Of a DNA stretch of 64,000 nt, positions 2,209 through 27,046 are shown piece by piece. Under the pieces are notes generated by a model that was given only the letters and a program-made list of their open reading frames with translations, made no database searches and was not told where the DNA came from. How positions within the stretch are numbered: position 1 is the stretch's first letter; the number at the start of each line of letters is the position of its first letter. This stretch comes from Candidatus Bathyarchaeota archaeon (GTDB lineage: Archaea > Thermoproteota > Bathyarchaeia > Bathyarchaeales > Bathycorpusculaceae), in NCBI GenBank assembly GCA_026014745.1, contig JAOZHS010000002.1:62001-126000 (forward strand), read 5' to 3'. The position numbers and the translations under genes were made by a program.

Positions 2209-2715
2209 CTATTCACCTCCCTTCCGCTTGTATCGGGGCGTCTCTTTAGCTGCAAGTTTGTTGAAAATGGCGATTGATTGTTTGGTCATGCATAGCTGCT
2301 TTTCGTCAGGCCTCAGGGTGAGGTCGTACTCTTGGATTATGGTGTCGAGGGTTTCTTGGCAGTCTTTTTCTTTGGGGCATTGTGGGCAGAGTTTTCCGCC
2401 GTAGGAGTCGTGGGCGTACCAGATTATGATTCCGAGTTTTTCGGTGTAGACTATGTAGACTTGGCTGCTGGTTTGGTAGTCGAAGCCTATTAGGAGTCCT
2501 TTGTAGTCGAGTAGGGTTTCGATGTCGAGGCGGTGGCTGTTGGCGTGTTCTTTGAGGGTTTTGGCGATTTTTTCTCGGGCGCGGTTTAGGACGCGGGATA
2601 CGTAGGCGGGGGTCCATTGTTGGGTTTGGTGTTCTTCGGCGATTGTGCTTGTGTTTTTGCCTTTTTGGAATTCTTGCCACACTATTGATTCGTCGGTTGA
2701 GAGTAGTGTTGCCAT
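2209..2715 (-). CDS. HTH transcriptional regulator with C-terminal Cys cluster
   Basis: DNA-binding protein of about 168 residues. The N-terminal part (about 8-60) has a sigma-70 region 4/LuxR-like helix-turn-helix: STDESIVWQEFQKGKNTSTI, then PAYVSRVLNRAREKIAKTL. The C-terminal half contains CPQCPKEKDC, a possible metal or redox site, in GGKLCPQCPKEKDCQETLD. ATG 2715 is chosen; a GTG at 2724 would add three residues. It is the first gene of an operon with the PH-domain gene. Its promoter carries the same operator as the ABC exporter, so autoregulation and control of the exporter are likely (inference). The ligand is unknown. Confidence 0.75.
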   Translation of the reverse strand: MATLLSTDESIVWQEFQKGKNTSTIAEEHQTQQWTPAYVSRVLNRAREKIAKTLKEHANSHRLDIETLLDYKGLLIGFDYQTSSQVYIVYTEKLGIIIWYAHDSYGGKLCPQCPKEKDCQETLDTIIQEYDLTLRPDEKQLCMTKQSIAIFNKLAAKETPRYKRKGGE

Positions 2716-2732
2716 TTCGCACACTTCAATTA

Positions 2733-2751
2733 TTTACCAAAATATAGTAAA
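2733..2751 (-). promoter_or_regulatory. Operator in front of the HTH regulator gene
   Basis: TTTAC at 2733-2737 and GTAAA at 2747-2751 with a 9-bp spacer, one mismatch from the operator at 1401-1419. A TATA-like CTTTAAAGC is at 2759-2767, so the site lies over the expected transcription start, as at the ABC operon. Confidence 0.65.
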
Positions 2752-2884
2752 GATTTCGCTTTAAAGCTTTCGGAGTCACCGCAGCAAGCAACAGTTACTG
2801 ATATATTGAGACTTAACATAACAGTTAATACAACGGAAAACAATACATTACATATCCTCAACCAAACAAGAGGCAGGAGGGTAA

Positions 2885-3118
2885 ACAACGAACAGATTCA
2901 TAAAATACAACAAATACTACCGCCTAGCCATAATCTGCTCAGTCATCGCCTTAGCCCCAATCATCTGGGCAATCATCGCCACAACCGCCTTTGCCGGATC
3001 AACCATAGCCACAATCAGCTTATTCTTCGTTCCAACCGCCATAGCCATAGCAGTCATCTTAGCGTTAAACTTCTGGTACGAAGGAGAAGACCGCCGAATA
3101 GGACTACGTAGAGCATAA
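2885..3118 (+). CDS. Small two-helix membrane protein, start codon unclear
   Basis: The plus frame from 2885 (just after a TAA) to the TAA at 3116 encodes 77 residues. Two strongly hydrophobic segments are followed by a charged tail, NFWYEGEDRRIGLRRA. Codon choice (GCC, ATC, ACC) matches the neighbouring genes, and hydrophobicity is far more regular than in the overlapping minus-strand frame, so this frame is the real one. No ATG, GTG or TTG occurs in frame. A strong GGAGGG (2876-2881) precedes it, and candidates are ACG 2888 or ATA 2900, or the N-terminus has been frameshifted. No family recognised. Confidence 0.5.
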   Translation, partial: TTNRFIKYNKYYRLAIICSVIALAPIIWAIIATTAFAGSTIATISLFFVPTAIAIAVILALNFWYEGEDRRIGLRRA

Positions 3119-3166
3119 AATAAATCGTTATGTGCTTCTTTTTGCAGCCAAAAGTTGTTGCGAAGA

Positions 3167-3186
3167 TAGTCAAGAATCCTTGACGA
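3167..3186 (+). promoter_or_regulatory. TAGTCAA-N6-TTGACKA regulatory site before secreted-protein gene
   Basis: TAGTCAA, GAATCC, TTGACGA at 3167-3186; the core GTCAAG-AATC-CTTGAC (3169-3184) is a perfect palindrome. A TATA-like CACATAAAC follows at 3191-3199, about 30 nt before the start codon. The same site occurs before three other surface-protein units, at 37351-37393, 51492-51546 and 58643-58685. Confidence 0.7.
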
Positions 3187-3229
3187 AAAAGCACATAAAC
3201 ACATCACAGGCTATAGCACTTTGATAAGC

Positions 3230-4417
3230 ATGAAGCGGGTACTTGTTGTTCAGCTTATTGCTTTGTTACTTTTACTAACAATAGCTGCGTCTTCAGCCCA
3301 AATCGCCGTCACAGCATCGTCGCCATCGTGGTCTAAAGAAAACAAGGCATTAGAGGCTAAAGCACTCCAATTTCTCAAGGACGTTGCAAACATTAACGTC
3401 TCAAGCTACCATAAATTTGTGCGAGTAAGCAATGAGGCACCCGTACCTCTACCGATGACGGGAAAAATGTTTCACTTTAACCTAACAACACGCGGCAGTC
3501 AAGTGGATGCAAGGGTATTTTTTAGAGGGGGCACACTTTTTTTGAGCGCAATCTATCCTGTAAAAGGGTCCATAATCCAATATGAACCGACACCTCAAGA
3601 CAGCTCAGCGATTGTTAAAAAAACCTTAACACGATTACAGGAGTTTTCAGACAAGGATTATCTGTCAACTTTTCAAAGCATGCTTAGCCAAACAGCAACA
3701 ATAGAACCTTCAGAGGTATCGAACGCTAATTGGACTCAAAAAATAGCGATGGAACACGATTCGATGGGTAATATTACTACAATAGCGTGGGAACCTTATG
3801 CAAATGGGCTCAGCTACCCCCAAAATCAACTCTATCTTGAATTTACGGAGGGGCAACTTACGCATTATGGCGATTTCTTGGGAGTTTATAAATTCGGTAA
3901 CTTGGAGCTTAAAGTCTCAGAGGCACAGGCAATTCAAATAGCCTTTGAACGTACACGTAACTATTCCTATACTGACAAGGGAGTGACCGCGTCTAACTTT
4001 ACTGTGCTATTACAATATGCCAAGGCAACTGCATACTTATCAGCCAGAGAAAACAACACACTCTACCCCTACTGGAATATCATGCTGCCCCTAGATAGAA
4101 TGTATCCGGGCGGAGTAACTTTTTTCCATGTTTTAATGTGGGCGGACACTGGCGAGATAATGTTTTTCTCGCCTATGGGCTTTTTTGGCGAAACTGACGA
4201 TGGCACTGTTCCTTCTGCGTCACCGCAGCAGACACCCACAGCCGACGCAGCCACACCCATTGCAGGTAGAGACGTAGGGAACCGCACGTTAATGACAACT
4301 GGCTTGATGATTTTCTCCGCAATACTAGCTGTAACCATAGTTGCGGGTTTGGTTTTCTATAAGCAGCGTAAAGGTTGGCGGGCCCGACGGGAATTGAACC
4401 CGCGACCTAAGGATTAA
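3230..4417 (+). CDS. Secreted, C-terminally anchored protein with PepSY-like ectodomain end
   Basis: Surface protein of about 395 residues of unknown function. It has a signal peptide (MKRVLVVQLIALLLLLTIAA), a long ectodomain with several N-glycosylation sequons, a short Thr/Pro/Ala linker (about 330-350), and a transmembrane helix (about 358-380) with basic residues after it. The region YPYWNIMLPLDRMYPGG ... MWADTGEI (about 280-310) resembles YWYIILRLDKVYAGG ... LFADTGDV of the membrane-anchored regulator at 50054-51349, suggesting a shared domain. ATG 3230 is preferred to TTG 3221. The reading frame does not stop after the membrane helix but runs 14 codons into the opposite-strand tRNA-Lys gene. 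The TAGTCAA site is upstream. Confidence 0.8.
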   Translation: MKRVLVVQLIALLLLLTIAASSAQIAVTASSPSWSKENKALEAKALQFLKDVANINVSSYHKFVRVSNEAPVPLPMTGKMFHFNLTTRGSQVDARVFFRGGTLFLSAIYPVKGSIIQYEPTPQDSSAIVKKTLTRLQEFSDKDYLSTFQSMLSQTATIEPSEVSNANWTQKIAMEHDSMGNITTIAWEPYANGLSYPQNQLYLEFTEGQLTHYGDFLGVYKFGNLELKVSEAQAIQIAFERTRNYSYTDKGVTASNFTVLLQYAKATAYLSARENNTLYPYWNIMLPLDRMYPGGVTFFHVLMWADTGEIMFFSPMGFFGETDDGTVPSASPQQTPTADAATPIAGRDVGNRTLMTTGLMIFSAILAVTIVAGLVFYKQRKGWRARRELNPRPKD

Positions 4418-18248: not shown

Positions 18249-18500
18249 AGCAATTAACTCCTTAAAAGCCAAAGAACCAGAACTTTGGTATGTGATAAAA
18301 ATATTTGTGGTAACACTGTGGCAGATACAAGCGCCCTAACCGCAAGTTTTCAAGTCAAAAGGTGGAGTCAGCTGATAAAAGAGCCAAGTTTATTCTGCAA
18401 CAAGGGGCTACCCCGTTTACTGGCAAAGCTTAAGGTGGTATGTCTTTTTTTGACCCCGCAGATTGGTAAGAAACGCCGGAGAAAGCGCTGAGTGGGTAGT

Positions 18501-18536
18501 TTTAAATAGATATTCAACCCAAATTGGAATCGGAGA
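18501..18536 (+). promoter_or_regulatory. Promoter and ribosome-binding site of the RiPP-like operon
   Basis: TATA-like TTTAAATA at 18501-18508; transcription would start near 18530. GGAGA at 18532-18536 lies 6 nt before GTG 18543, which supports this start for the precursor gene. The 250 bases between here and the divergent giant-protein gene hold no clear gene. Confidence 0.6.
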
Positions 18537-18542
18537 ATCATT

Positions 18543-18803
18543 GTGTCTACAACAAAAGAAAAAAACCGTGCACTTGTCTACAAGGCTCTTACCGACCCCG
18601 CTTTCCGCAAGCAACTTTCTACTCAACCAGCAAAAGCATTAGGCGTATCAACATTGTCCCCCGAAAAAGAAGTTATGATTAAAAAAGCATTGTCTGCGAT
18701 CAACGAACTAGAGAGCAAGATTGGCTCAATCGCTGACGAGCTTCTATGTGCAAACGGCGGACCATGTGGAATAGCCAAATTGGACGTAGCAAAACGCCGA
18801 TGA
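18543..18803 (+). CDS. Putative RiPP precursor peptide
   Basis: 86 residues. The N-terminal leader has RALVYKALTDPAFRKQL followed by QPAKALG, which resembles nitrile-hydratase-like (NHLP) leader peptides (ALxDPAFRxxLxxxPxxALxxLG); a second helix follows (VMIKKALSAINELESKIGSI). The C-terminus changes character: LLCANGGPCGIAKLDV then AKRR, with two Cys separated by five residues in a Gly/Asn-rich stretch, plausible for thioether or other radical modification. Its stop overlaps the start of a radical SAM/SPASM gene (ATGA), and two more radical SAM genes follow. Precursor identity is inferred from size, composition and position; no protease or exporter gene is adjacent. Confidence 0.7.
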   Translation: MSTTKEKNRALVYKALTDPAFRKQLSTQPAKALGVSTLSPEKEVMIKKALSAINELESKIGSIADELLCANGGPCGIAKLDVAKRR

Positions 18804-20065
18804 GGCTAAACGCTATTTTCCACTTTTTTTATTTAAACAGCAAACAGTACAGGTTTGACTCCGACTCACTTGAAGTGATTCAAGTTGAAGAAAATACTCA
18901 AAATGAGACAGGCAAAGATAAGTTATCTAAACCGAAGCCCTCGAAGAGAAAGACCACAAGAAATAGTGATCATGTCGAAGTCTTGGTTAATGCAACTCAA
19001 AAATGCAACCTAAACTGCAGTTACTGCTTTGTTGACAAAGGAAGATTCAGTTATAACGACCAAAGATGCGAAGCGCTATCTCCGCAGACGGCAAAGCACC
19101 TGGTTGAGGAGTTGCCGAGAAAGCTTCCGTGGGCTAAGCATTTTTGCATCCACTTCTATGGCGGGGAACCAATGCTTAACCTCAAAGCAATAGACCAAGC
19201 CATAGACGCTGCGTCGCAAAGTGGGGTTGAGTTCTCTTTTGCGGTAACGACAAATGGCACCGTAGCAACCAAAAAAGCGATGACTACGCTAAAACGGGGA
19301 AACTTCAATGTGGTTTTAAGCATCGATGGTCCAAGCCACATTCATAACGAGTGCAGAAAAACAAAACATGGTGAACCCACCCATGCAAAGGTTCTGGAGT
19401 TTCTCCAGAAAGCAAAGTCAGAGGGTCTCCACGTGAGGGGTTCAAGTGTGGTCCGAAGAGGCTGGTCACTTAAAGAAGCCTGTGCCTACCTTGACACACT
19501 CCCAGTGGATGCGGTGAAAGCTCAAGCTGTTCGATTGCCACCCGAAAACCCTCTGAGTTTAGGCGAATCCGAAAGGTCTGACTATTTTAGCCATTTACAG
19601 CAGATAGGTCAAGAAGCAATTGACAGCATAAAAAATGGCAAGGTTCCAAGAGACGACCGATTCAACCACAGAGTTCTGCAACTCCTCTGCAAAATGAGCC
19701 GTGATTCGTTTTGTGGGGCGGGCACCCGAACATTTGGGATGTCTTCAGACGGCACAATGCTGCCCTGCGTCTTGCTGGCCGGCAAACAAGAGACCGCGCT
19801 GGGCAACATAGGTGACGGCGGAGAATGGGCAAAAAATGGGGTGACTTGGGCTAAAAAGCATAAGCCAAGGCGTGAATGTTTTGAATGCTGGGCTTTGCCC
19901 CTATGTGGCGGAGGTTGCCCTGCTATGCTTTCGGTGTGTGGAGATGACGAGTGTGAACTTGTCAGGATGAACTGCGAAGTTGCCCTTCAGATATACGCTG
20001 CTTTCTTGGATCATCCTCAGGATTTGCTTGTTCTTTCGGAGGTTTTGGAAAACAATGACAGTTGA
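18800..20065 (+). CDS. Radical SAM/SPASM peptide maturase (first)
   Basis: 421 residues. The N-terminal region (AIFHFFYLNSKQYRFDSDSL) resembles the short peptide-recognition segment of maturases such as the SCIFF enzyme. The radical SAM core starts at CNLNCSYC (about 85-92, CxxxCxxC binding the 4Fe-4S cluster), with FYGGEPML (SAM-binding GGE) near 130. The C-terminal SPASM domain has CGAGTRTFGMSSDGTMLPC and CFECWALPLCGGGCPAM plus later Cys, enough for two auxiliary clusters. Probable substrate: the peptide encoded immediately upstream (ATGA overlap at 18800). Thioether or C-C crosslinking is the usual chemistry of this group; which applies here is unknown. ATG 18800 is preferred to 18746, which lies inside the precursor gene. 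Confidence 0.85.
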   Translation: MRLNAIFHFFYLNSKQYRFDSDSLEVIQVEENTQNETGKDKLSKPKPSKRKTTRNSDHVEVLVNATQKCNLNCSYCFVDKGRFSYNDQRCEALSPQTAKHLVEELPRKLPWAKHFCIHFYGGEPMLNLKAIDQAIDAASQSGVEFSFAVTTNGTVATKKAMTTLKRGNFNVVLSIDGPSHIHNECRKTKHGEPTHAKVLEFLQKAKSEGLHVRGSSVVRRGWSLKEACAYLDTLPVDAVKAQAVRLPPENPLSLGESERSDYFSHLQQIGQEAIDSIKNGKVPRDDRFNHRVLQLLCKMSRDSFCGAGTRTFGMSSDGTMLPCVLLAGKQETALGNIGDGGEWAKNGVTWAKKHKPRRECFECWALPLCGGGCPAMLSVCGDDECELVRMNCEVALQIYAAFLDHPQDLLVLSEVLENNDS

Positions 20066-21251
20066 ATTAACTGCTCTCGGACGTAAACTGGCTTTTGACC
20101 CAAACGTTGTTACGCCTCCGACAATTAATGAGGGGCTGTTTCCTAAACCGTGTAGTTTGGCGTTAGATATCTCGGGTTCATGCAATTTGAGATGTGTTTA
20201 CTGCGCCGAGAATGCCACAATGCCCCACCGAGAACCAATGCAGGCTAAAACACTTAACCAAAGCATTGATTGCCTCTTTAAGTGGTCAGGCAAAGGCGGC
20301 GTATCAATTCATTTAGGCAGCGGTGAACCCCTCCTTAATCCCCCGTTAGTCAAAGAAATCGATAAAAAAGCCCACCTGCGAGCAAAACAAAGCAACAGGG
20401 AATTATCTCTGCACCTCACCACCAACGGGACTTTGCTAAATGAAGAGATTGAGCGGTGGCTAGTCAAAAGAGGCTGGAGCGTCAAAATAAGCTTAGACGG
20501 AGACCAAGCTATCCATGATCGCTTCCGCGTAGACAACGTCGGCACAGGCACCTTTAACAGGGTTAACCCCTCCGTTTGCCGATTAGCAAAAAAGATACCC
20601 CAACAGTTTAGCACTACATCCGTGCTCTGTCACGGTACAGATCCCAAAGATGTTTTCTACGCTATTGCCACAATGGGTGTTAGAAACATAGAGATGGTAC
20701 CCATAGCGACAACGCAGTCATCGAAGTATGCTTTGCGTCAAGAGGATTTAGAGGCATACCGCGACTACATTTTTGACTACGTTCAACGGCTTGCTAAAGG
20801 CGAGAAAGTCCCAGTGAACATACGCTTCCACAAAAGGCTACTCAAAGTGTTAGGATACGGCAACACTCGAGTTCCATGCGGGGCTGGAAGAAACTTTTTC
20901 GCCGTTGGACCAGACGGACACATTTACCCCTGTTTTAGGTTTGTCGGATTACCAAAATATGCATTAGGAGACCTATCGGGCTTAAGCATAGAGAAAGCCA
21001 AAGAGTTCACGGCTTGGGCGGGACGACCCTACGAGCAGAGAAGCCAATGCCAAAGCTGCTGGGCTTCCTCACTTTGTGGTGGACCATGTTATGCAGTTGC
21101 AGAACTTTTCGGAAACGGCGAAGCCTTGCCATCCTACTGTGAAATAGTAAAAATGGAGGCAGAAGCTGCGCTATGGCTTGCCGACTACCTTCGGGCGAAC
21201 AACATTGAAAGACTAGTCGAATTAATGGATTACCAAGTTGATGAGGAGTAA
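20055..21251 (+). CDS. Radical SAM/SPASM protein (second)
   Basis: 398 residues, overlapping the previous gene by 11 bp. Motifs: LDISGSCNLRCVYCAEN (CxxxCxxC about 37-44), HLGSGEPLLNPP (GEP in place of GGE), LTTNGTLL, and KISLDGDQAIHDRFR. The C-terminal SPASM-like part has PCGAGRNFFAVGPDGHIYPCFRFV and CQSCWASSLCGGPCYAVAELF and a later Cys. It has a different leader-binding region from the first maturase, so it may act on a different residue or form a heteromeric pair, as seen in some two-enzyme RiPP systems (inference). No B12 domain. Codon use is similar to its neighbours. Confidence 0.83.
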   Translation: MTVELTALGRKLAFDPNVVTPPTINEGLFPKPCSLALDISGSCNLRCVYCAENATMPHREPMQAKTLNQSIDCLFKWSGKGGVSIHLGSGEPLLNPPLVKEIDKKAHLRAKQSNRELSLHLTTNGTLLNEEIERWLVKRGWSVKISLDGDQAIHDRFRVDNVGTGTFNRVNPSVCRLAKKIPQQFSTTSVLCHGTDPKDVFYAIATMGVRNIEMVPIATTQSSKYALRQEDLEAYRDYIFDYVQRLAKGEKVPVNIRFHKRLLKVLGYGNTRVPCGAGRNFFAVGPDGHIYPCFRFVGLPKYALGDLSGLSIEKAKEFTAWAGRPYEQRSQCQSCWASSLCGGPCYAVAELFGNGEALPSYCEIVKMEAEAALWLADYLRANNIERLVELMDYQVDEE

Positions 21252-21254
21252 CGT

Positions 21255-22505
21255 TTGCGGGTAACCCTTGTTAAGCCACCCGAACAGGCAAGGCTCAATT
21301 TTGGAACATTCAGTCTAGCAGTTCTCGCCTCAGCCGTAACAGACATCGCCGACGTCAACATATTGGACGCCACATACCTCTCAATGCAGGACTCGGTAGC
21401 TGCAATTTTGAATCAAAAACCCGATGTCGTGGGCATCACAACGATGAGCCTACAATCTGTCGATAAAGTCGCCCTTCTCGTACAAAGCATTCGACAGAAA
21501 GGGTTCATGGGCAAAATAGTGGCGGGTGGACACGGAGCCTCAATGCTGCCGCTTCCAGTTCTGCAAAGCGGAGCCGACGTTGTGGTTTATGGAGAAGGCG
21601 AGGAGACGTTTAGAGAACTGTTACAGAATGGGTTTTCAGAGCAGATTCAGGGAATCTATTTCTTAAAAGACGGAACCTTACAGAAGACCCCGCCCAGAAA
21701 CCTCGTCGATATTGAGAAGCTAAAGGCACCCGCGAGAAATCTCTGTCCTAAAGTTGACGATGACATTTTTCTTTTGGAGACAAGCCGAGGCTGCCCGCAT
21801 TCATGTTCCTTTTGTGAAACAAGCCGTTTCTTCTTTTGCACTTGGCGGGGAAAATCGCCCCACAAAGTTGTTGAAGAAATCAAAGGAATAGTTAACGACG
21901 GCGCGGTTGCTATCCAGATTGCAGATGACAATTTCACAGCTAACCCCAAACGAGTAATCGAAATATGCCGCCTACTAAAAGACCAGCCTTTGCCGCTGTT
22001 TTTTATGTTTTCTGCACGTACTGACGACCTGCTAAAGGAACCTGCGTTAATTGGAGCTCTTGCAGAAGGAAATTTTCTGCGCGCCACCATAGGCGTGGAG
22101 ACGCTTGTGCCACAAATCGCCAAGTCAATTGGGAAACCAATCGATTTTAGTCAGCATAAACAGGCTTTTAACAAACTACGGAAAGCAGGCATCTTTTCGG
22201 TTGCATCATTTATTGTCGGGTTGCCCGCTGAGACTGAAGCAATGAGGGCGCAGTATGTTGAGTGGGCGGTTGAGCTTGCGGATTCTGCGGTGTTTTTGCC
22301 CTTTCAGCCATTTCCTGGAACTCCCATGGAGGCTAAGGTAAGTGAACCTGAAGATTGGTGTGTTAGATGCGCGGAGGAGTTAACGTTAGCGTTTAGGAGG
22401 CATCCCGTGGCGTTGGAGCGGCTGGGTTTGGCGGCACAAGAAAGTACGGTGCGAGGAATGCTTGCTAGGGTTACTTTGAAAAATTGGGCGTCAGGCGGCG
22501 CCTGA
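21255..22505 (+). CDS. B12-binding-type radical SAM protein
   Basis: About 416 residues, starting with TTG 21255, 3 bp after the previous stop. The N-terminal cobalamin-binding-like Rossmann domain (about 1-130) has VTLVKPPEQ, DVVGITTMSLQ, VAGGHGASMLP and VVVYGEGEETFREL. The radical SAM core has ETSRGCPHSCSFC (CxxxCxxC about 178-185) and IQIADDNFTANPKR. It lacks the usual DxHxxG, so cobalamin may bind base-off or weakly. Homologues methylate unactivated carbons, epimerise, or remain uncharacterised. Position suggests a third tailoring step on the upstream peptide (inference). Last gene of the cluster. Confidence 0.83.
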   Translation: MRVTLVKPPEQARLNFGTFSLAVLASAVTDIADVNILDATYLSMQDSVAAILNQKPDVVGITTMSLQSVDKVALLVQSIRQKGFMGKIVAGGHGASMLPLPVLQSGADVVVYGEGEETFRELLQNGFSEQIQGIYFLKDGTLQKTPPRNLVDIEKLKAPARNLCPKVDDDIFLLETSRGCPHSCSFCETSRFFFCTWRGKSPHKVVEEIKGIVNDGAVAIQIADDNFTANPKRVIEICRLLKDQPLPLFFMFSARTDDLLKEPALIGALAEGNFLRATIGVETLVPQIAKSIGKPIDFSQHKQAFNKLRKAGIFSVASFIVGLPAETEAMRAQYVEWAVELADSAVFLPFQPFPGTPMEAKVSEPEDWCVRCAEELTLAFRRHPVALERLGLAAQESTVRGMLARVTLKNWASGGA

Positions 22506-26014: not shown

Positions 26015-27046
26015 TTAGCGGAACTTCAAGATTCCGAGGTGCTTTTCGTTCTTTTTCAAGAACGCGCTCTCAACACCAGTGACAACCGCCATGACGGAAA
26101 CGGCACCCTTCAAGTCGTTGTCGACTCTTGCGCCCCAAATGATTTTTACTTTGGGTGGAAGGCTGCGTTTCATGATTTCGGCTGCGCGGTTAACTTCACT
26201 AAGTGTTAAATCTTCGCCGCCAGAGACATGAATGAGTAAGCCTTGGGCTTTGGTGACGTCTTCGATGTCTAGTAGGCGTCCGTTGAGTGCTTTTTCTACG
26301 GCTGCTTCAACGCGTCCTTCGCCGGTACCTTCGCCGATGCCGATGGATGCTAAGCCTGCGCCGCTCATGATTGCTTTGAGGTCTGCATAATCCATGTTGA
26401 TGAGGCTGGCGGTGGTTATTGTTTCAGTTACGCCTTTGACAAATTTGCCGACAGTGGTGTTTGCAACGCCGAGTGCTTCCCGGAAGGGCAGGTTGCCTGC
26501 GACTTTGACGAGTCGGTTGTTGTCGATAACGACTACGGTGTCACACACAGCCTTGAGGCGGTTTAAGCCTTTTTTGGCTGCAGCCATACGGGCGGTTTCA
26601 ACTTCGAAAGGCAAGGTAACCACACCGACAAGTAAAGGCGAGAGTGGGCTGCCTGCGAATTTTCTTCGTAGGTGGTCAGCTAAGCCGATTATGGAGCCGG
26701 TGCCAGTGCCTCCGCCTAATCCAGCAACTAGAAAGATAATGTTGGATTTGCTGAGTTCGTAGATGACTTCGTTGGCGCTTTCGTATAGGGCTTTTTCGCC
26801 GACGTCAGGATATCCGCCACTGCCGAGGCCGCGGGTGAGTTTTTCACCGATTAAGATGCGTTTGTCGGCTTTGGATATTTTTAGGTGAGTTGCGTCGGTG
26901 TTTACGGCGACGAGTTTGCCGCCGGTGATTCCTTTTTCTTTAACCCAGGTAATCACGTTGCAACCTGCGCCGCCGAGTCCAACGGCGACTACGGTTGGTA
27001 CTGCCATTCTGGCAAATTTTTCTATTTTTTCTTCTTGTGTCTCCAC
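26015..27046 (-). CDS. ftsZ: Cell division GTPase FtsZ
   Basis: Tubulin-like GTPase forming the division ring. 343 residues: VVAVGLGGAGCNVI (P-loop-like, about 19-32), the tubulin signature GLGGGTGTGSIIGLADHL (about 109-126), VIDNNRL, then FREALGVANTTVGKFVKGVTE, and the C-terminal domain SIGIGEGTGEGRVEAAVEKAL (about 236-256). No clear C-terminal FtsZ peptide (ends EKHLGILKFR). A GTG at 27046 is used, but the frame stays open upstream with a plausible tail (EEQYPYQEAPF), and no standard start codon lies there. A TATA-like TTAATAAA near 27127-27134 would put the transcript start near 27105. FtsZ fits Bathyarchaeia and Euryarchaeota more than Crenarchaeota. Confidence 0.95.
   Translation of the reverse strand: METQEEKIEKFARMAVPTVVAVGLGGAGCNVITWVKEKGITGGKLVAVNTDATHLKISKADKRILIGEKLTRGLGSGGYPDVGEKALYESANEVIYELSKSNIIFLVAGLGGGTGTGSIIGLADHLRRKFAGSPLSPLLVGVVTLPFEVETARMAAAKKGLNRLKAVCDTVVVIDNNRLVKVAGNLPFREALGVANTTVGKFVKGVTETITTASLINMDYADLKAIMSGAGLASIGIGEGTGEGRVEAAVEKALNGRLLDIEDVTKAQGLLIHVSGGEDLTLSEVNRAAEIMKRSLPPKVKIIWGARVDNDLKGAVSVMAVVTGVESAFLKKNEKHLGILKFR

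Follow-up and report, generated by a model that had tools for sequence, protein, structure and literature searches.

A four-gene archaeal locus combining an NHLP-like leader peptide with three radical SAM enzymes

Does the small open reading frame that precedes three radical SAM genes in a Candidatus Bathyarchaeota archaeon encode the substrate of those enzymes, and what would they make of it? The genes lie in the window analyzed here, a 64,000-nucleotide stretch of contig JAOZHS010000002.1. A first-pass annotation had read them as a RiPP-like cluster. Layout and homology make a RiPP pathway very probable: the leader is of the NHLP class, the two SPASM enzymes are distinct, and a B12-binding radical SAM enzyme and a one-transcript layout favor the same reading. 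The core may be shorter than the Cys/Gly-rich C-terminus, and radical SAM peptide clusters have proved less exceptional for the lineage than was implied.

Gene layout and the small open reading frame

The organization of the locus is read directly from the DNA (Table 1), and re-reading it reproduces the four genes, coordinates and junctions of the first-pass annotation. The precursor stop and SPASM1 start overlap as ATGA, the SPASM1 and SPASM2 genes overlap by 11 bp, and a gap of 3 bp separates SPASM2 from the B12-radical SAM gene. GGAGG stands upstream of SPASM2 and GAGGAG upstream of the B12-radical SAM gene. A longer SPASM1 frame from 18746 would begin inside the precursor gene; the start at 18800 is favored for the ATGA junction that results from it. 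This spacing suggests that the four genes are probably on one transcript. The TATA-like box lies about 35–43 nt ahead of the start codon, a placement that suits an archaeal promoter, although the string by itself is not rarer than chance within the window. Scans for sigma-70 promoters and terminators, both methods unsuited to archaea, returned chance-level results.

Table 1. Coordinates of the locus and its surroundings (numbering of the window)
Feature	Position	Strand	Remarks
Surface-type protein, 1315 aa	14325–18272	−	repeated 'SSDNATWIDANTPPG' units
TATA-like box TTTTAAATA	18500–18508	+	possible operon promoter, from sequence
GGAG, Shine-Dalgarno-like	18532–18535	+	7 nt upstream of precursor GTG
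Precursor ORF, 86 aa	18543–18803	+	GTG start; NHLP/Os1348-like leader and short C-terminal core
ELLCANGG, precursor residues 66–73	18738–18761	+	double-glycine leader-end motif (ELxxAxGG)
Cys69 codon	18747–18749	+	just upstream of Cys75 codon
Putative core PCGIAKLDVAKRR, residues 74–86	18762–18800	+	if cut after GG; inferred from sequence
Cys75 codon	18765–18767	+	
SPASM1, radical SAM/SPASM enzyme 1, 421 aa	18800–20065	+	CX3CX2C at residue 69; full SPASM Cys set; N-terminal region shortened
SPASM2, radical SAM/SPASM enzyme 2, 398 aa	20055–21251	+	CX3CX2C at residue 43; SPASM domain
B12-binding radical SAM enzyme, 416 aa	21255–22505	+	TTG start; likely C-methyltransferase or related
Archaeal SRP RNA, RF01857	22949–23264	+	154.5 bits; directly downstream of cluster
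Beta-helix-like surface-type protein, 782 aa	23545–25893	−	
FtsZ/tubulin-like protein	26015–27046	−	

The small gene is more than a chance reading frame, since none of the other five frames there has as good a codon score and its product matches both NF038399, the model of the Os1348 NHLP clan, and nitrile hydratase alpha chains of the PDB. The homology is observed at modest scores. NF038399 gives E=8.4e-6 against the whole library and 25.8 bits (curated cutoff 40), TIGR03793 gives 18.2 bits (curated cutoff 50.9), and TIGR04509, also under its curated cutoff, matches more weakly than NF038399. In a PDB sequence search every match is a nitrile hydratase alpha chain, the top one, with a duplicated domain, at E=0.001 and the remaining ones at E of about 1.3–1.7; Pfam NHase_alpha reaches only E=0.18. 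A single-sequence AlphaFold (AF2) model has a mean pLDDT of 84 and predicts helices at residues 4–17, 19–27, 29–33 and 40–70, followed by a disordered tail. A fold search with this model found no significant match, its top hit being Os1348 itself (6lk7; E=3.5, TM 0.36). By these comparisons the NHLP/Os1348-type leader is real though sub-cutoff, and the NHLP-like helical leader of the first-pass annotation is borne out by NF038399, the nitrile hydratase alpha match and the predicted helices.

The precursor tail and its processing

The tail reads ELLCANGG-PCGIAKLDVAKRR, and its only cysteines are Cys69 and Cys75. It had been described as a Cys/Gly-rich C-terminus; Cys and Gly are indeed present, but that description missed the ELxxAxGG double-glycine leader-end motif within it. 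Residues E66, L67, A70, G72 and G73 agree with the double-glycine leader end known for NHLP and bacteriocin leaders (PMC2887384, PMC10885120, PMC10858898). The pattern E[LMI]xx[VIALM]xGG occurs nowhere in the 56,709 residues of 167 other ORFs, a count that is indicative only, as the pattern was written post hoc.

Given ELLCANGG at residues 66–73, the core could be as short as PCGIAKLDVAKRR, which has a single Cys. Gly72 and Gly73 would then end the leader, Cys69 would belong to it, and at most one thioether could form, at Cys75; the second SPASM enzyme would make a carbon–carbon bond, carry out an epimerization, or work jointly with the first. The position of the motif where it is expected and its absence from the control residues argue for this shorter core, as do the Gly-Gly termini of NHLP leaders (PMC2887384) and a predicted helix that stops at residue 70. 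Double-glycine cleavage is nonetheless poorly matched by Ser at −12 and by Pro at P1', directly after GG, and a genome-wide search of this 97.5% complete genome found neither a Peptidase_C39 at E<=0.1 nor a C1 peptidase. Because of these misfits both readings of the core are kept, the shorter one being rather unlikely.

The missing peptidases also bear on a second alternative, in which the peptide is modified and neither cleaved nor exported, persisting as an intracellular modified small protein or giving rise to a redox cofactor in the manner of mycofactocin or PQQ. Inspection of the neighboring genes agrees with the first-pass annotation that no exporter or protease adjoins the cluster, and the leader is predicted to be a compact helical unit, both of which suit a retained peptide. 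Against this, no dehydrogenase or other cofactor user adjoins the cluster and the GG motif suggests exported-peptide ancestry, leaving retention distinctly improbable. Under the preferred reading, an NHLP-leader RiPP modified on its tail, the sequence suggests a cut after Gly73; with no cognate protease or exporter found, unlinked host proteins would perform it, or the peptide would stay unprocessed.

Three radical SAM enzymes and their candidate chemistry

All three enzymes retain an intact cluster-binding CX3CX2C motif, and both SPASM domains lie above the TIGR04085 cutoff. For each SPASM enzyme the top two NCBIfam models are PapB and the Nif11-peptide maturase, with all family models under their curated cutoffs; PapB (NF047865, cutoff 340) scores 160.4 bits for SPASM1 and 211.7 bits for SPASM2. 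The SCIFF and PeaB models also score high for both, below cutoffs, and the 'ScfB-related orphan maturase' NF040492, likewise below cutoff, ties with SCIFF for SPASM1. The closest solved structure for both is CteB (5wgg); a structure model of SPASM1 was set aside at pLDDT 50. In a 19-row tree SPASM2 falls with NlpM (support 90/85, not starred), and SPASM1 sits on an unresolved long branch. The two maturases are therefore different, as first annotated: they are distantly related, at 29% identity, and their separate places in the tree, which has long branches, together with this identity rule out a recent duplication.

The CX3CX2C motif is preceded by 42 residues in SPASM2 and 68 in SPASM1, compared with 93 in NlpM and 111 in PeaB. 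A clear RRE was seen in neither SPASM enzyme, the N-terminal region of SPASM1 being short and predicted at low confidence, and N-terminal regions of this length make a full fused RRE unlikely in both. As a separate observation, genome G000 (2.7 Mb) encodes 15 SPASM-domain proteins, two of which, at C1:1169414 and C1:1170442, look like a tandem pair.

SCIFF and PeaB-type enzymes are thioether formers. PapB also forms thioethers, and it accepts Cys-Xn-Asp with n=0–6 (PMC9413430). The tail contains Cys75-X5-Asp81 and no repeated CX3D/E motifs; this spacing falls inside the PapB range and offers a concrete candidate bridge. From family resemblance, the chances that at least one SPASM enzyme forms a thioether are about even, and Cys69/Cys75 are the sites at which such chemistry would first be expected.

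The third enzyme, annotated from the start as a B12-type radical SAM protein, has a B12-binding domain (PF02310) at 55.4 bits against a Pfam cutoff of 32.1, followed by a Radical_SAM domain (PF04055), also above cutoff. Its best NCBIfam models are BchE and ApyD, both below cutoffs, and BchE is not known to be a methyltransferase. Relatives at E<=1e-35 occur in 82 of 257 class genomes, and the nine loci around the nearest of them in the class contain no NHLP-like peptide cluster. Methylation by this enzyme is a tentative proposal, with a chance somewhat short of even.

These elements can be assembled into a pathway. The helical NHLP-class leader (about residues 1–70) would present the disordered C-terminal tail to the two SPASM enzymes, which would link Cys75, Cys69 or both, through the thiol, to a carbon in the side chain of a residue close by; the expected bridges are ranthipeptide thioethers, each lowering the mass by 2 Da. 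Afterwards or in parallel, the B12-radical SAM enzyme would place one or more methyl groups on unactivated tail carbons (+14 Da each) or catalyze a related reaction. That the enzymes act on this peptide at all we infer from layout and homology. A bolder version is a long shot: a new archaeal RiPP class in which two distantly related SPASM enzymes use one NHLP-type leader and each makes a thioether of its own, on Cys69 and Cys75 across Gly-Gly, with B12-dependent C-methylation and a modified small protein that stays in the cell as the product.

Distribution and comparison with known systems

The cluster stands alone among the genomes searched, as judged by homology. The precursor has no true homologue in 60 relatives, where weak matches are unrelated ORFs, or in viral contigs or plasmids. 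SPASM2 has no match in 31 same-genus genomes (1e-30), 397 other phylum genomes (E<=1e-40) or viral contigs, and one scan of genome contigs yielded nothing closer than two remote radical SAM proteins; for SPASM1, the 256 other genomes of the class contain a single, remote match (1e-22). Searches of open-licence papers did not find a cluster of this kind described for the lineage, though as evidence of absence this is weak. Third-codon GC is 0.38–0.48 in the cluster genes versus 0.57 ± 0.05 in 22 other window genes, which either horizontal gain or relaxed constraint could explain.

Large surface-type protein genes flank the cluster on the opposite strand, and the SRP RNA downstream, being of the archaeal type, marks the organism as an archaeon. 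In two sister genomes (G010 and G018) trpA and the FtsZ-like gene, which flank the cluster here, are on separate contigs, so the neighborhood is variable; in the sister regions read beside these genes, neither the cluster nor either surface-protein gene was present. A clean island insertion is not supported, no insertion boundary being drawn with the flanks on separate contigs in both sisters. The FtsZ/tubulin-like protein itself occurs, at 87–89% identity, in just 5 of the 31 other genomes of the genus.

This distribution bears on a third alternative, that the small ORF is not a substrate and some other protein of the cell is what the enzymes act on, or that the B12-radical SAM enzyme is an unrelated passenger. 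Some related SPASM enzymes elsewhere adjoin larger proteins instead of short annotated peptides, the nearest B12-radical SAM relatives lie outside RiPP clusters, and the pairing of precursor and enzymes lacks comparative support. Yet NHLP homology in an ORF that overlaps SPASM1, with such tight spacing, would otherwise be a strong coincidence, and a non-substrate role is very unlikely. The best overall explanation is still an NHLP-leader RiPP with SPASM thioethers and B12-dependent methylation of the tail, a combination given roughly even odds. It is weakened because among the genomes searched the precursor has no relative and the SPASM enzymes no close one, so the pairing is without evolutionary support, and also because specific family matches are all sub-cutoff, no RRE is clear and the kin of the B12-radical SAM enzyme lie outside RiPP clusters.

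The first-pass annotation had called the arrangement unusual in an archaeon. The enzyme set is the cluster's own, but same-genus genome G001 makes the lineage less exceptional. At loci L026, L027 and L028 it encodes four precursor-like proteins of 146–160 aa, and an Os1348-like segment is matched at three of their sites. Two of those three continue with a YydG-group radical SAM gene and then an ABC exporter, followed in L026 by a small conserved protein and a B12-radical SAM gene. The window cluster is thus one peptide system among several in the lineage, set apart by the enzymes it uses. As an observation in their own right, these G001 loci are possible archaeal epimerized-peptide clusters.

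Matches to the Os1348 model elsewhere in the phylum are mostly not comparable: L009, L014 and L019 adjoin LigB-like dioxygenase genes, L013 and L018 fall inside replication factor C-like proteins, and L015 is close to YcaO. The L015 match, in an f51 genome of this phylum, is a small Os1348-like peptide ORF with a YcaO-like gene nearby, and a YcaO-like gene adjoins the related match L017. In genome G046 (L025), a PapB-like SPASM enzyme (2391–3749) has in its vicinity a 68-aa Gly-rich peptide (1684–1890) whose N-terminus looks signal-like, as well as an HTH protein and an ABC ATPase.

Should the pathway work as proposed, an archaeal NHLP-leader peptide would be processed by three radical SAM enzymes, and the four genes would form a small system to probe how one substrate is shared by two different SPASM enzymes in which no leader-binding domain is obvious. 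A genus with several unrelated NHLP-like peptide clusters is a little-explored source of modified peptides.

A comparison with known systems places the locus between several families. It has in common with NHLP/Os1348 (proteusin-class) precursors a nitrile-hydratase-like helical leader, a Gly-Gly near the leader end and a short Cys-bearing tail. It differs in its sub-cutoff NF038399 and TIGR03793 scores, a leader shorter than that of many proteusins and its archaeal origin; it also has no adjoining NHLM ABC transporter, and no C39 peptidase was found genome-wide. Polytheonamide-type proteusin pathways likewise combine an NHLP leader with B12-type radical SAM methyltransferases. The present cluster, in contrast, has a single short B12-radical SAM enzyme alongside two SPASM enzymes of the PapB/NlpM group, and no C1 protease was found.

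The PapA/PapB ranthipeptide system (freyrasin, NF047865) is similar in its top-ranked PapB model, radical SAM CX3CX2C with SPASM, and a Cys with a downstream Asp. The cluster departs from it with scores of 160 and 212 bits against 340, no CX3D/E repeats, two enzymes, an NHLP-type leader and an extra B12-radical SAM enzyme. SPASM2 groups, at 30% identity, with NlpM (TIGR04064; Prosthecochloris plasmid, L100), which adjoins a long-leader precursor of a related class, as the SPASM enzymes do here. The leader of the cluster is, however, NHLP-like and not Nif11, and SPASM2 lacks an N-terminal region of the usual length. Although the G001 loci L026, L027 and L028 differ in having precursors of about 150 aa without GG, a YydG-like epimerase-type enzyme and an ABC exporter, they share with the window cluster an Os1348-like segment, an adjoining radical SAM gene and the genus, and one of them also has a B12-radical SAM enzyme.
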